DNA of 25,444 bases from a virus. The notes under the pieces are model-generated. The model searched no databases. It was not told the origin of the DNA and saw only the letters and a program-made list of their open reading frames with translations. Every line of letters starts with the position of its first letter. The first letter of the stretch is position 1. The position numbers were made by a program, and so were the translations under genes. Shown here in pieces: positions 16,285-20,215 of the stretch. The stretch spans positions 1 through 25,444 of the IMG/VR virus record IMGVR_UViG_3300036859_000194. The stretch is one strand, 5' to 3'.

Positions 16285-16836
16285 TTACAATTTCTCCAAT
16301 GACGTCACCGGCAAGTCAATGGTGGTCATCTGCCCCATGAACGCCAGTAGCACCTTGGCGCGCTTGGTCGCCGTGGCCGAGCGCAGCCTGTGAATGAATT
16401 CGATGATGGTGGCGTTGAGGCCGGCGAACGGCCCGTCCGACACCCGCACCAGCTCGTCGAGCTCGAAATGCGTCGGCCAGCGTGTGGTGCGGTCGAACAG
16501 GCCGCAGGCTTCGGCCTTCATCAAGGCATCCATGCGCGCGGCCGGCACGTAGCCGGGGGCGTCGCCGCCTGGCATGCGGAGCACGTCAATGACGCCATCA
16601 ACATCCAGGAGTTCCTGCCAATCCTGCCGATACGGATCAACCTGCACCGGCACGTAGCGCTGGAATAGTGGGCGCGAGATAGGTTTGCACGCCGGGTGAA
16701 TTCGAAACCGTTCCATGGGCAGGAAAACGCCATAGCCTAAATCCTTTGCGATGTCGGCACAGACATCCTTCTCGGCACGCGGCTCGACGTAGGCGATGTG
16801 CCAGAGCGGCCCGGAATAGCATTCTTGCGCCATCAT
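16285..16836 (-). CDS. NusG-like transcription antiterminator (phage NusG paralogue)
   Basis: 183 residues from ATG 16834-16836, with GGAGG 7 nt before it. Residues 11-115 match an NGN domain: LWHIAYVEPRAEKDVCADIAKDLGYGVFLP has the usual 'W.v....g.E..v...l...g...f.P', then PLFQRYVPVQVDPYRQDW and VDGVIDVLRMPGG, as in NusG and RfaH. Residues 127-182 form a KOW-type C-terminal domain with VRVSDGPFAGLNATIIEF and AKVLLAFMGQMTTIDLP. NusG paralogues bind RNA polymerase through the NGN domain and make it resistant to pausing or termination. As the second-last gene of the early operon, facing the long late operon, this is probably the late-gene antiterminator. It overlaps a 28-codon ORF by ATGA, suggesting translational control. 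Host NusG would be the main alternative, but the neighbours are all phage genes. Confidence 0.82.
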   Translation of the reverse strand: MMAQECYSGPLWHIAYVEPRAEKDVCADIAKDLGYGVFLPMERFRIHPACKPISRPLFQRYVPVQVDPYRQDWQELLDVDGVIDVLRMPGGDAPGYVPAARMDALMKAEACGLFDRTTRWPTHFELDELVRVSDGPFAGLNATIIEFIHRLRSATATKRAKVLLAFMGQMTTIDLPVTSLEKL

Positions 16837-16919
16837 GCATCCACCTCCATCCCGAACCGGATGATGATGAACCAACTGCCTTGGTCGAGCACGAGCACGT
16901 AGCAGGGGTGAAGTTTCAT
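16833..16919 (-). CDS. 28-codon leader ORF coupled to the NusG-like gene
   Basis: ATG at 16917-16919, with GAGG 7 nt upstream. The frame reads MKLHPCYVLVLDQGSWFIII then RFGMEVDA and ends in a TGA that overlaps the NusG-like start (ATGA). The ribosome site of the NusG-like gene lies inside its last codons. The peptide is hydrophobic with three Ile in a row. Both the good ribosome site and the exact overlap argue that it is translated. It may regulate the downstream gene by coupling or attenuation, or be a small protein in its own right. No homologue is recognised. Confidence 0.55.
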   Translation of the reverse strand: MKLHPCYVLVLDQGSWFIIIRFGMEVDA

Positions 16920-16922
16920 GGC

Positions 16923-17366
16923 TCAGCCTCGATATGGCAGCAGCCGGCCATGCTCGAACACGCCGATCGGCCGGCCATATTTTTTGGTCATTTCCTCATA
17001 GCTTTCCGCTGCCGAATAGTGTGGGCGCGGGAGCCTCAGGGGCGGCGGCAGGCTTGAGTATTTCGCCACTTTGGTGCGGTGCTCGATCTCCGCCGCGCAC
17101 GCCTCCACGATCTCCGCCGGACTCGGCGGCCATTTGCAGCGGCGCTGGATGCCCGTTGTGGGATCCGTCACGTATTCCACGATCTCCGGCGCGTACTGCG
17201 CCAGGATGGCCCCCAGCGTCGCCACGAACCCCTCTGGGTCGTGGTAGTCGGCCTTGCGGTACGAGGCCATCAGCAGCGCCACCCGACCCATGACCCAGTC
17301 GGGATCGGACTTTGGCGATGGCCTCGCTGATGGTCGATTGTCCGGCATGAACGTTGACTGATCCAT
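16923..17366 (-). CDS. Conserved phage protein of replication region, unknown
   Basis: 147 residues. The ATG at 17364-17366 has AAGGA about 7 nt upstream. The first 20 residues are Ser/Pro-rich. From residue 21 the text becomes ordered: DPDWVMGRVALLMASYRKAD, FVATLGAILAQYAPEIVEYV, CKWPPSPAEIVEACAAEIEH. This matches a frequent phage pattern in which 'W...r...Ll..Y' is followed by a helix and 'R.P.P.EI...c'. Proteins of this pattern occur in replication or early regions with no known function, and a loader or primase accessory role is a guess. Its first 370 nt overlap the preceding frame in another phase. The first 20 codons look less gene-like than the competing frame, so the true start could be the internal ATG of VMGRVALL. 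Confidence 0.65.
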   Translation of the reverse strand: MDQSTFMPDNRPSARPSPKSDPDWVMGRVALLMASYRKADYHDPEGFVATLGAILAQYAPEIVEYVTDPTTGIQRRCKWPPSPAEIVEACAAEIEHRTKVAKYSSLPPPLRLPRPHYSAAESYEEMTKKYGRPIGVFEHGRLLPYRG

Positions 17367-17871
17367 TTGGTTTTCCTTGGAAAGGCGAGGATTTCCAGTT
17401 TTCCCAAGCCGCATCCCAGTTGGCGTAGCGGCGATCGTGAGCGCGCGCGGAATTCTTGAACCGCTCGAATTCGGCGGTATCCGATTCCGCCAACCCATTT
17501 TTTGGCTGAAAGTTTTCAGGAAGCGGGACTTTCGAGGAAGGCTTTTTGCCCCTCGCGCGCGCAACCCCTACTTCCTCTTTCTTTTCTTCCTCAACAGAAG
17601 AAAGAGAAGAAGTAGTATTACATATAGGCTCAACGTCACAGGTGACGCTTGTGACGTCACCGTGACGCTCGATTTCCTCTTCTTCCTTTTTCTTTCTCCA
17701 CCGACGAGTACGCGCTGCACCTGAAGTCGAAGCTCCGCGCCATGAAGCTTCAATGCGTTCAACAGCCGTCACCAGTGCGTCACCGGTGACGCCAGCCGCC
17801 ATCAATTCTCGGAGAATGGGCGCGACCGTGTTCACAGCATCATCCTTAGCGAGCAGCGAGATCCGAACCAT
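16996..17871 (-). CDS. Replication-region DNA-binding protein (lambda O-like in position), 3' part doubtful
   Basis: 291 residues if read from ATG 17869-17871 to the next stop. The first 190 residues look real: VRISLLAKDDAVNTVAPILRELMAAG, GAARTRRWRKKKEEEEIER (a basic patch familiar in phage replication-region proteins), a flexible Glu/Ser-rich linker, then FERFKNSARAHDRRYANWDAAWENWKSSP, the 'W..W..W' end seen in DUF1376-like and other phage replication proteins. A helix TISEAIAKVRSRLG follows. After about residue 200 the text is Gly/Arg/Ala/Pro-rich and looks like the shadow of the next gene. The natural end may therefore be lost, or a frameshift may join both genes. The coding sequence contains a cluster of GTGACG repeats and a purine tract, reported separately. 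The start overlaps the previous gene by 26 nt and lacks a good ribosome site. Confidence 0.62.
   Translation of the reverse strand: MVRISLLAKDDAVNTVAPILRELMAAGVTGDALVTAVERIEASWRGASTSGAARTRRWRKKKEEEEIERHGDVTSVTCDVEPICNTTSSLSSVEEEKKEEVGVARARGKKPSSKVPLPENFQPKNGLAESDTAEFERFKNSARAHDRRYANWDAAWENWKSSPFQGKPNGSVNVHAGQSTISEAIAKVRSRLGHGSGGAADGLVPQGRLPRPRGVRGDAGGHPGAVRAGDRGIRDGSHNGHPAPLQMAAESGGDRGGVRGGDRAPHQSGEILKPAAAPEAPAPTLFGSGKL
17568..17792. other. Candidate phage replication origin inside a coding sequence
   Basis: Eight copies of GTGACG/CGTCAC lie between 17634 and 17791, five of them within 34 bp (17634-17667). They build three perfect inverted repeats: CGTCAC-AG-GTGACG at 17634-17647, GTGACGTCAC at 17651-17660, and the 16-bp GCGTCACCGGTGACGC at 17777-17792. 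Directly beside them is a strand-asymmetric, AT-rich tract at about 17568-17632 (pyrimidine-rich, then AGAAGAAAGAGAAGAAG and TAGTATTACATATAGG), far below the GC level around it. Iterons followed by an AT-rich purine/pyrimidine-biased stretch within the initiator gene is the layout of the lambda ori inside gene O. This is an architectural analogy only. No initiator binding is shown. Confidence 0.45.
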
Positions 17872-18757
17872 TTGCTTGCCGCTTGGCCCGCCTGGCTTCT
17901 GCGACCTTGCGTTTCCATTCTTTCGCCTCTTCCCATGTGCGTGGGAAGGCAATAGGTGCTACCGGTGTTTCTTCTTTGCTGCAGAGAATGAGTTCGAGCT
18001 TTTCGAATTCGTTGAATACTTGGTTCAATCTCTCTTCGCTGGTCGATTTGCGTGAGTCGGGATGCAAACAAGCCAGGATTTTTTTGAACATCGACCGGGG
18101 CATCACACCCTTGGTCCGTGAATCGATTATGGCTTGAGCATGCTCCAATCGCTTTTGACAACTGGGTAGCCACACCCCCTCTATGTGCTTACGGCACTCT
18201 CGCTGGACTGCGTCCCAATACCCGGCATCAAGTTTCTTCTTGTGCTGCTTGATGGCCGCTTCCAATTTTTGCTGTGCAGTCAGCGACAACATGTCGGGCG
18301 TAATCGTCGGCTCAGCCTCGCGGCGCCCTTGCTCGCGAGCAACCACGGTCCGGATGAGCTGGACCCCGACGCCGGTTTCGGCTCTTATCTCCTCCTCGGA
18401 CTTGCCTTCATCGAGACGAGCAGTCGCTATTGCCTCGGCGACGTCAGGATCAACGCGCTGCGGCTTGTCCTTCTTGCCGCTGCCCTTGGGGCGGCCTTCA
18501 CCTTTCCGGCCCCGCTCTGATGTGCGAGGTTGAGTTTGTTCATCGTGAACAAACTCCTTGAGATCGCGAACGATAGTCGGATGGCTCACACCAAGTTGCG
18601 TGGCGATGTACTCCATCGTGTAATTCTGTTTGTAGAGACCCTCGGCTATGGCCTTGCGTTGTGCTTTCCGGCCTTCCGTCGAAAGACCATGCCATACCGC
18701 GAGCAGACAACTGTCGGGGCAGGTTCGGTCACCGCCGCTGGGACATACACATTTCAT
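17846..18757 (-). CDS. Two-HTH DNA-binding protein with N-terminal Cys cluster and HPD motif
   Basis: 303 residues from ATG 18755-18757, with AGAAGGAT 7 nt upstream. The N-terminus is CVCPSGG..TCPDSC (C3, C5, C13, C17), a likely metal site. Residues 45-70 form a good HTH (TMEYIATQLGVSHPTIVRDLKEF) of the sort in ParB-like or transposase-like proteins, and residues 118-142 a second (KSEEEIRAETGVGVQLIRTVVARE). They are separated by a basic Gly/Lys-rich linker. Near the end, FKKILACLHPDSRKSTSEERLNQVFNEFEKLE (residues 224-255) contains HPD at 232-234 with flanking helices, resembling a short J-domain. The region is in the early operon just before the origin-like gene, so roles as a replication or transcription regulator are possible. 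I recognise the style from alphaproteobacterial phages but know no function. A hairpin leader precedes it. Confidence 0.68.
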   Translation of the reverse strand: MKCVCPSGGDRTCPDSCLLAVWHGLSTEGRKAQRKAIAEGLYKQNYTMEYIATQLGVSHPTIVRDLKEFVHDEQTQPRTSERGRKGEGRPKGSGKKDKPQRVDPDVAEAIATARLDEGKSEEEIRAETGVGVQLIRTVVAREQGRREAEPTITPDMLSLTAQQKLEAAIKQHKKKLDAGYWDAVQRECRKHIEGVWLPSCQKRLEHAQAIIDSRTKGVMPRSMFKKILACLHPDSRKSTSEERLNQVFNEFEKLELILCSKEETPVAPIAFPRTWEEAKEWKRKVAEARRAKRQANGSDLAAR

Positions 18758-18778
18758 TGTCGCGATCCTTCTGTTTGT

Positions 18779-18796
18779 GCGGGACGCCATGCCCGC
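18779..18796 (-). promoter_or_regulatory. 5' leader hairpin of the HTH/HPD gene
   Basis: On the minus strand, GCGGG-CATGGCGT-CCCGC precedes AGAAGGAT and the ATG. The same arrangement, hairpin then AGAARGAT then 7 nt then ATG, occurs before the gene at 18840-19244. Confidence 0.5.
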
Positions 18797-18801
18797 GTCT
18801 G

Positions 18802-18829
18802 AAAAAAACCGGGGGTCATTACCCCCGGT
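18802..18829 (-). terminator. Rho-independent terminator (leftward)
   Basis: On the minus strand a perfect 9-bp stem ACCGGGGGT/ACCCCCGGT with a 4-nt loop (AATG) is followed by seven T. It ends 10 nt after the stop of the gene at 18840-19244. Transcription beyond it into the HTH, replication and NusG-like genes therefore needs read-through or a promoter in the short leader. Confidence 0.85.
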
Positions 18830-18839
18830 ATTAGTTGGG

Positions 18840-19244
18840 TCAATCGCCGTTTCCGCCGGGCACGATCTCGCCACCCAGCATGTTGCGACGCTCATTGCGG
18901 CTGAAACCGTAGCGCCGCAGCACCACTCCGAGTGCCTTGGAGATGGTGGCGAGCTTCTGCTTGCTCACCTCGACATTGCCCTTGGCTTGCGCATGCTCCC
19001 GGATCAGCGCAGCTGCCATCGTGTTGTCGGCCGACAGCGAACCTTCAACTGCCTGCTCGTCATACACCGCATAGAGGAAAGCCTTGTAGGCCTTGTCGGT
19101 TTCGTACAAGCCCAAGTGGATTTCCTCGACTTGGTCGTTGAGCGTCCGAGTGTTTTCGCTCTTACGATGCTCCATGAATTGGCGAACCGTGCCCGGGAGC
19201 TGAGGCGGAAGGGGTTTCTTGTTGAGAACTTCAGTCATTGACAT
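18840..19244 (-). CDS. Unknown early protein
   Basis: 134 residues. Three in-frame ATG codons lie close together. I chose 19242-19244 because AGAAAGAT then stands 7 nt upstream, as AGAAGGAT does before the HTH/HPD gene. The protein has a Pro-rich start (KKPLPPQLPGTVRQFMEHRKSEN), then helices TLNDQVEEIHLGLYETDKAYKAFLYAVYDEQAVEG and ALIREHAQAKGNVEVSKQKLATISKALGVVLRRYGFSRNERRNMLGG. It is followed by a strong terminator, so it can be expressed by itself together with GcrA and RusA. No family is recognised. The mostly helical, charged build would fit a small regulatory or inhibitor protein. Confidence 0.65.
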   Translation of the reverse strand: MSMTEVLNKKPLPPQLPGTVRQFMEHRKSENTRTLNDQVEEIHLGLYETDKAYKAFLYAVYDEQAVEGSLSADNTMAAALIREHAQAKGNVEVSKQKLATISKALGVVLRRYGFSRNERRNMLGGEIVPGGNGD

Positions 19245-19325: not shown

Positions 19326-19817
19326 TCAAACCTGTACCAATGGTCGGCCGGTGCCGCTGTGGGCGCGCGCGGCGTGCGCGGCGCAGTAACAGCGGCCGGC
19401 GGTGAAGTCGGCTTCGAGTGCGCCGCAATAAAAAAAATCAGAAGTGCGCGGATCGCCCACGGGGAATCGGCAGGTCCAGTTCGTCAGCTCCAGGAGCGTT
19501 TTCCTTTGCTCGACCGGGATGGCGCTGTCGTCGGTGAAAGTGGGAACCGGTTTTGGCTCAAGCGCCGGCGGTGGTGCGGCCAACCGCCGGTGCGGCGAGA
19601 ACTTCTCGCGGGGCGGCGGCCGATGGCGGGGCTTCGGTCGAGGCATCGATACTTCCGGCCTTGGATTGGCGAGGCCGAGCCTCCAGAGTTTTCCCAGCAC
19701 CGAATTTCGGGTGCATGGGCCGAAAAGCTTTTTTAGTTGGACCGCGATCCACGATGCGGAATGCTTCAGCTCATTGAGCCGCTTGAGTTCGGCCGTAGCG
19801 TCGTCATTCCACGTCAT
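19326..19817 (-). CDS. gcrA: GcrA-family cell-cycle regulator paralogue
   Basis: 163 residues from ATG 19815-19817, with AGAGGA 5-6 nt upstream and ATGA overlap with the RusA stop. The N-terminus MTWNDDATAELKRLNELKHS, ASWIAVQLKKLFGPCTRNSVLGKLWRLGL is the GcrA DNA-binding domain ('W..e....L..l...g.Sas.IA..l....tRNaViGK..RLgL'). The middle is a Pro/Arg-rich linker. The end, TLLELTNWTCRFPVGDPRTS, DFFYCGALEADFTAGRCYCAAHAARAH, is the GcrA C-terminal Cys/His region that contacts sigma70. GcrA activates promoters with CcrM-methylated GANTC in Alphaproteobacteria. A phage copy in an early operon could redirect host transcription or time phage genes to the cell cycle. Differences from host GcrA (a two-residue longer first loop with FGPC) suggest altered specificity, which is inference. 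Confidence 0.85.
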   Translation of the reverse strand: MTWNDDATAELKRLNELKHSASWIAVQLKKLFGPCTRNSVLGKLWRLGLANPRPEVSMPRPKPRHRPPPREKFSPHRRLAAPPPALEPKPVPTFTDDSAIPVEQRKTLLELTNWTCRFPVGDPRTSDFFYCGALEADFTAGRCYCAAHAARAHSGTGRPLVQV

Positions 19818-20215
19818 GCGCATCCTCTCAGCACAAGCCGGCAGCCCGCCGGCGCCTCGCCCCATGTCACCGTGAGCCGGCGCAGGTAGCGCTTGTCATC
19901 GTTGCGGATGAGCTCGATCCGGCGCAGGTAGTCGATCGCGGCCTTGATCGAATTGTCCAAATCCTGTCGGCATTTCTTCTCGCACAGGATGATTTGGAGC
20001 TCGAAGCGCTCGGGCAGCTCGATACCCGTAGTGGCGCGGAACTGGCCGGACGCCATGAGCAGCATGTCGGCCTGCTTTTTCCAGCGCTCGACCTCGCGGG
20101 CGGCCGCCGGATCAATGCGCCGCGTCCTGTTCACACTCGGCGGCAAGGGGATGTCGAGCACGACATCCGGCGGGCACCCGAACGGCCGATCCTCGCAATC
20201 GCGGGCGTCAAGCAT
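19814..20215 (-). CDS. rusA: RusA-family Holliday junction resolvase
   Basis: 133 residues from ATG 20213-20215, with GGAGAG 6 nt upstream. The N-terminal VLDIPLPPSVNRTRRID is the RusA 'lp.PPsvN' start. The catalytic set is complete: D85 and D87 in RQDLDNSIKAAIDYL, K91, and D106 in LIRNDDKRY, with the same spacing as D70/D72/K76/D91 of E. coli RusA. The enzyme cuts four-way junctions as a dimer. In phages it resolves recombination and replication branches before packaging. It fits the RecT/YqaJ pair encoded on the other arm. Its stop overlaps the GcrA-like start. Confidence 0.9.
   Translation of the reverse strand: MLDARDCEDRPFGCPPDVVLDIPLPPSVNRTRRIDPAAAREVERWKKQADMLLMASGQFRATTGIELPERFELQIILCEKKCRQDLDNSIKAAIDYLRRIELIRNDDKRYLRRLTVTWGEAPAGCRLVLRGCA

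Follow-up and report, generated by a model that had tools for sequence, protein, structure and literature searches.

The closest described counterparts of the locus reported here are lambda ori within gene O and the O/ori regions of Stx phages, in which repeats inside the initiator gene code for the inter-domain linker of its product and an AT-rich tract comes next. Lambda carries four iterons of 18 bp per ori, annotated at 39034-39118 (codons 117-145 of O). In Stx phage P27, iteron changes that were neutral at the amino acid level abolished plasmid establishment (PMC7466680). For Miko and Rachaly, an origin within or beside repA was suggested, as in lambda; the authors saw no repeats in the region examined, and the hosts differ (PMC7157519). 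The mycobacteriophage RepA-like proteins show distant C-terminal similarity to one relative of the gene described below (L093, from Sphingopyxis indica) and are a looser parallel. For a further group, the winged-helix initiators of phrog_10469 and phrog_186 (named DnaD-like helicase loader), no description of an intragenic origin was found in the literature searched.

The DNA analysed (the window) is the whole of the 25,444-bp linear virus record IMGVR_UViG_3300036859_000194, a contig that is a fragment. Its minus strand carries a replication-initiator-like gene (16996..17871, ATG at 17871), and a segment of this gene is interpreted here as a phage replication origin inside its own initiator gene, as in lambda gene O, with a probability of roughly 0.83; binding and origin function are inferred. 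The lambda-ori-in-O layout proposed in the initial annotation was recovered, in the order N-terminal domain, repeats coding for a linker predicted to be disordered, strand-biased tract and C-terminal domain, and the lambda iterons lie in the codons of the corresponding part of O. PHROG profiles (phrog_345, phrog_678 and phrog_9773) also link lambda O to L106 and other relatives of the window gene. The two systems differ in that the window's repeats are built from the 6-bp half-site GTNACG, frequently as overlapping palindromes, rather than from an 18-bp iteron, and in that the window protein has neither a winged-helix domain nor a PHROG match of its own. We infer, without having demonstrated it, an intragenic origin of the lambda kind whose repeat class is new and whose initiator belongs to a type without a winged helix.

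Eight GTGACG/CGTCAC hexamers are present at 17634 (-), 17642 (+), 17651 (+), 17655 (-), 17662 (+), 17767 (-), 17778 (-) and 17786 (+), within 158 bp (17634-17791), together with three inverted repeats, as had been claimed from first inspection. The inverted repeats are CGTCAC-AG-GTGACG at 17634-17647, the palindrome GTGACGTCAC at 17651-17660 and the 14-bp palindrome CGTCACCGGTGACG at 17778-17791. Five hexamers lie within the 34 bp of the main array (17634..17667), which consists of CGTCACagGTGACG, the GTGACGTCAC palindrome and cGTGACG and encodes RHGDVTSVTCDV; the second group (17767..17791), made up of CGTCAC and the CGTCACCGGTGACG palindrome, encodes GVTGDALVT of the N-terminal domain. No hexamer forms a denser cluster in the contig, the maximum elsewhere being five copies per 158 bp. 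Chance was rejected as the cause of the cluster, as none of 100 dinucleotide shuffles reached eight copies (best cluster of any hexamer, 4-7; CGTCAC, 1-3). Synonymous shuffling, in which codons were permuted within the gene among positions with the same amino acid so that protein and codon usage were kept, gave an expectation of 1.39 CGTCAC in the first 531 nt of the gene against the 8 observed, and eight copies were reached in 0 of 1000 shuffles. Since some hexamer not named in advance reached eight copies at least once in 300 such shuffles, the excess in the window gene alone is weaker evidence than the comparative result given below. Under the same codon shuffle, the iteron words of lambda O itself show only modestly. 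CGTNAC also occurs seven times in lambda O (L120, 687-1586), where 2.3 would be expected; with p 0.02 among many tests, this is probably chance.

Directly 3′ of the main array, in the direction of the gene, lies a strand-biased tract (17570..17629) that codes for part of the linker. Its AT content is about 65%, the contig being about 60% GC; the bordering AT-rich, strand-biased tract noted in the initial annotation exists, but it is not a single uniform purine tract: the plus strand is pyrimidine-rich and then purine-rich. A second pyrimidine-rich run is found at about 17668-17698. Five of the hexamers are located immediately 5′ (in the gene) of the tract, an arrangement like that of lambda, and the other three some 100 bp beyond them in the 5′ direction, where the N-terminal domain is encoded. 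The AT fraction of the tract was 0.65 versus 0.57 after synonymous shuffling (z 2.6). Across relatives, the 60 nt after the repeats exceeded the synonymous expectation for AT in 40 of 48 genes (combined z 13.2), and the tract in about 50 relatives is usually T-poor, its peptide depending on the frame (RDRDRD, ETETDT or EQSRTEQ). In sphingomonad relatives the tract is C-rich instead of AT-rich, which indicates that the tracts share a strand bias rather than a high AT content. In the window, positions 17570-17629 form a candidate DNA-unwinding element, its melting being inferred.

The product of the hexamer-bearing gene (MVRISLLAKDD...ENWKSSPFQGK, conserved to about 17365) generated no PHROG family match on its own at E 0.01, and its assignment as an initiator therefore rests on relatives. 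Over its C-terminal half, the window protein shares 58% identity with the rep gene product of L002, which has a phrog_10469 winged-helix domain at its N-terminus; with L093 the window protein can be aligned over the full length (E 3e-12, single comparison). L002, L093 and their relatives match the PHROG replication-initiation families phrog_1408, phrog_3992 and phrog_345. The earlier suggestion that the product resembles replication-region proteins is supported by this homology, from which the product is putatively an O-like replication initiator. The true C-terminal tail is uncertain, because the reading frame runs on into the next gene as far as 16996. It is open for about 370 nt (16996-17366) across that gene, and the same long overlap is also seen in L002 (6254-6516) and in L012; it may be a real overlapping tail or a meaningless open frame.

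The next gene of the operon (16923..17366, minus strand) is conserved and phrog_9804-like and shares 65% identity with the gene that follows the initiator in L002; a helicase-loader role for its product is a guess. It is followed, in the direction of the initiator gene, by a NusG-like transcription antiterminator gene (16285..16875, minus strand; NusG E 3.8e-9, phrog_6386 E 2.5e-18). The gene immediately upstream of the initiator (17846..18895, minus strand) has a weak helix-turn-helix match (HTH_38 E 2.9e-4, below the curated cut-off). Three genes were noted upstream of the initiator, a GcrA-like gene and two more. The GcrA-like cell-cycle regulator gene (19326-19865, GcrA E 4.3e-24) lies just upstream of the replication operon and indicates an alphaproteobacterial host. 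Downstream of the antiterminator gene come terminase, portal and head genes; RecT is on the opposite strand. A Pseudomonas phage relative has the gene order repressor, CII-like activator, initiator and DnaB helicase. Upstream of the Sphingopyxis indica initiator, L093 2289-2558 encodes a stand-alone DnaA domain IV protein (Bac_DnaA_C E 1.8e-11).

About 50 non-redundant relatives carry GTNACG-type repeats at the same position, in codons for a linker predicted to be disordered. The consensus over relatives is GTNACG, with GAAACG in one class. In a set of 52 non-redundant genes (the window gene and 51 winged-helix relatives), CGTTAC/GTAACG ranked first among all hexamers under synonymous shuffling, with 172 copies against 45.5 expected (z 19.3), and the excess was absent from 203 neighbouring ORFs used as controls (z -0.6). 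The families next in rank were TGAAAC and CGTTTC, which represent a second repeat type, and ATACAGATACAG, from the tract after the repeats. Hexamers in the same orientation are spaced with peaks at 11-12 and 22-24 bp. In the Pseudomonas-type relatives L057-L092, a second GTAACG group at nt 112-170 lies in winged-helix codons (GNGDVTLHE) and is comparable to the second group of the window (17767-17791).

Linkers with VT-rich text, and the abundance of GTC and NNC codons in high-GC genomes, could suggest that the hexamers are merely a by-product of a selected repeated peptide (VT, GD, RH, RN) written in preferred codons. We give almost no credence to this explanation: the relatives' hexamers occur in all six reading registers and are coded as VT, RN, RY, RH, GD and NV, the linker is predicted to be disordered, and holding protein and codon usage constant does not remove the excess, on which ground peptide-level selection was rejected. 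Across relatives, it is the DNA sequence of the repeats that is kept, over and above the amino acids it encodes, and the codon-fixed excess bears out, for most relatives, the expectation that the hexamers are kept beyond the amino acid sequence. The opposite outcome, loss of the hexamers with the amino acids retained, was not seen in most relatives but does occur in a near one: L012, which encodes a similar protein and has a neighbour gene 66% identical to that of the window, has no GTGACG/CGTCAC-type hexamers.

Among other close relatives, the sphingomonad genes L105 and L106 each carry seven GTGACG/CGTCAC hexamers positioned as in the window. The sequence CGTCACnnGTGACG (VTCD) is common to these two genes and the window, CGTTACttGTGACG is present in L093, and L093 and L103 have CGTTAC mixed with CGTCAC or CGTGAC. 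L104 and L112 encode an N-terminal domain of the window type but have TCCACCCGA repeats instead. These two are near-identical initiator genes in one bacterial genome, G059, and would share an origin type.

Palindromic sites inside an early operon would also suit a dimeric regulator, and the repeats might then be operators through which the initiator or another phage regulator controls the early operon, with no origin present; the sites of any DNA-binding protein would show the covariation described below. We consider this improbable, because the sites lie well within the coding region and not at a promoter, and recur in the initiator linker codons of very different phages, followed by a strand-biased tract as in lambda ori. 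Operator and origin roles are, in any case, not mutually exclusive.

The AlphaFold model of the window protein (mean pLDDT 64, modest confidence) contains helices at residues 9-25, 30-47 and 49-69 and a helical C-terminal domain, separated by low-confidence residues 71-109, which are coded by the repeats and tract and form the predicted disordered linker. No winged helix was found in the N-terminal domain, modelled at this modest confidence as a short domain of three helices, and a fold search of the model against the PDB gave no match. The third helix is basic (predicted codons 17665..17727, minus strand; residues 49-69, TSGAARTRRWRKKKEEEEIER) and contains AARTRRWRKKK. It follows the short helical domain in the window protein and a winged-helix domain in the other class, as in the model of L013 (mean pLDDT 80), which shows a winged helix, a separate basic helix at 99-112, a disordered linker and a helical C-terminal domain; its PDB matches were GntR/MarR-type winged helices with weak E-values. 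L002, L013 and about 50 relatives in phrog_10469 and phrog_186 share with the window the basic helix, GTNACG-type or GAAACG repeats and, in part, the type of C-terminal domain, and differ from it in that the window N-terminal domain is short and helical without a winged helix.

Linker repeats were classed as W (CGTWAC), T (CGTTTC) or S (CGTCAC or CGTGAC), a type being named when it had at least three hits and 60% of all hits, and any one gene carried almost only a single type. In the first set, Thr stood at R-2, two positions ahead of the basic helix's first Arg, in all 11 T-type genes and in 1 of 30 W-type genes. At fresh loci, for which the prediction had been written beforehand, the 23 T-type genes had 22 Thr and one Ser, and none of nine W-type genes had Thr (Fisher p 3.6e-7); of the 54 new genes in all, 14 were left mixed by the type rule and six could not be read by the motif. 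Thr at R-2 pairs with CGTTTC, and Ala or Asn with CGTWAC; in several mixed Thr genes, CGTWAC is as numerous as CGTTTC. Tree-independent pairs agreed in five of five supported cases, but the sign test (p 0.0625) remained above 0.05, and relatedness is therefore not fully excluded as a cause of the covariation. All pairs with differing C-terminal domains and N-terminal identity of at least 64% share a repeat type. On the first winged-helix tree, T-type repeats were unclustered (10 changes versus a shuffled mean of 10.0), whereas on a larger tree repeat types were clustered (14 changes versus 24), so that a part for the winged helix in reading the repeats stays open. The helix is coded just before the repeats, and physical linkage in recombination could therefore transfer both together.

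An attempt to extend the pairing to S-type repeats failed. Thr at R+1, drawn from the window, L105, L106, L065 and L066 as a marker of CGTCAC, was wrong in both fresh winged-helix genes (Met in L147, Ser in L148). Lys at R+1 was associated post hoc with CGTGAC (L050, L056, L141, L145, L152, L192 and L193), in some cases also with CGTCAC.

A gene product that lacks the winged-helix domain of the other class might only recruit the helicase at a real origin whose repeats are read by a different protein, perhaps the one encoded upstream, which has a weak helix-turn-helix match, or a DnaA-like protein, as the domain IV gene upstream of the L093 initiator could suggest. This division of labour seems unlikely, though it deserves somewhat more weight than an operator function, given that repeat type covaries, among winged-helix genes, with a residue in the basic helix that each gene itself encodes, and that the N-terminal part and the repeats occur together even where C-terminal domains differ, as between L106 and L105. 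The preferred reading, an origin served by its own initiator, is retained, and the short basic helix is inferred, less firmly and without binding data, to be the part that reads the repeat; being common to both classes, it would explain why initiators with unrelated N-terminal domains share a repeat. What is new is that the repeats within a gene agree in their variant and that this variant goes with a residue of a basic helix common to two unrelated N-terminal domains.

Basic helices on sites with an ACGT core are familiar from eukaryotic bZIP factors. The likeness, an analogy only, lies in the basic helix and in the palindromes GTTACGTAAC, GTGACGTCAC and GTCACGTGAC, which have a central ACGT and a varying flanking base. 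No further long helix that could form a leucine zipper follows the basic helix in the window and L013 models, and no bZIP homology was found. We raise, as a tentative idea that we hold to be more doubtful than probable, that these proteins are a class of initiators in which a basic helix carried on unrelated N-terminal domains reads ACGT-centred GTNACG or GAAACG sites and a few residues set the variant (CGTWAC, CGTTTC, CGTCAC or CGTGAC) at the origin, a bacterial-virus analogue of bZIP recognition in which origin and specificity helix are exchanged as one module.

Computation established the cluster itself, a hexamer excess that coding constraint does not account for, the return of the cluster with variant repeats in relatives, and the initiator homology; initiator binding, melting of the tract and helicase recruitment are inferences. 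Copies of the initiator would bind GTGACG half-sites, which in relatives are often spaced by roughly a helical turn and arranged as palindromes. The array so occupied would assist in opening the strand-biased, AT-rich tract next to it, and the replicative helicase may be brought in with help from the C-terminal domain. The GC skew inflection anticipated at the site was not borne out in the complete or near-complete relatives L117, L118 (50.0 of its 50.2 kb, the final 183 bases of the record being absent) and L119; skew is a weak test for temperate phages. The skew minimum of the window itself is at 19068, in a contig that is only a fragment. Confinement to one alphaproteobacterial phage family, also suggested initially, does not hold, as the feature extends beyond it. 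Our literature searches, which left most subscription journals uncovered, turned up no account of these origins.

Other O-like genes (L094, L095, L096, L099 and L100) have their own distinct linker repeats (CCAAAAACGGG, GGACCGCCCGGCGGT, GTGCACCCCCG, GGTGCTGACAGCACC), and intragenic origins may therefore be general in the O-like superfamily. Most origins of temperate phages are unannotated. If the rule holds, the origin, its initiator and the matching repeat could be read from sequence in many phages and prophages, the cue being oddly repetitive linkers in which VT, RN or RH text is followed by RDRDRD, ETETDT or EQSRTEQ, and the pairing of helix residue with repeat variant makes origin specificity directly testable.
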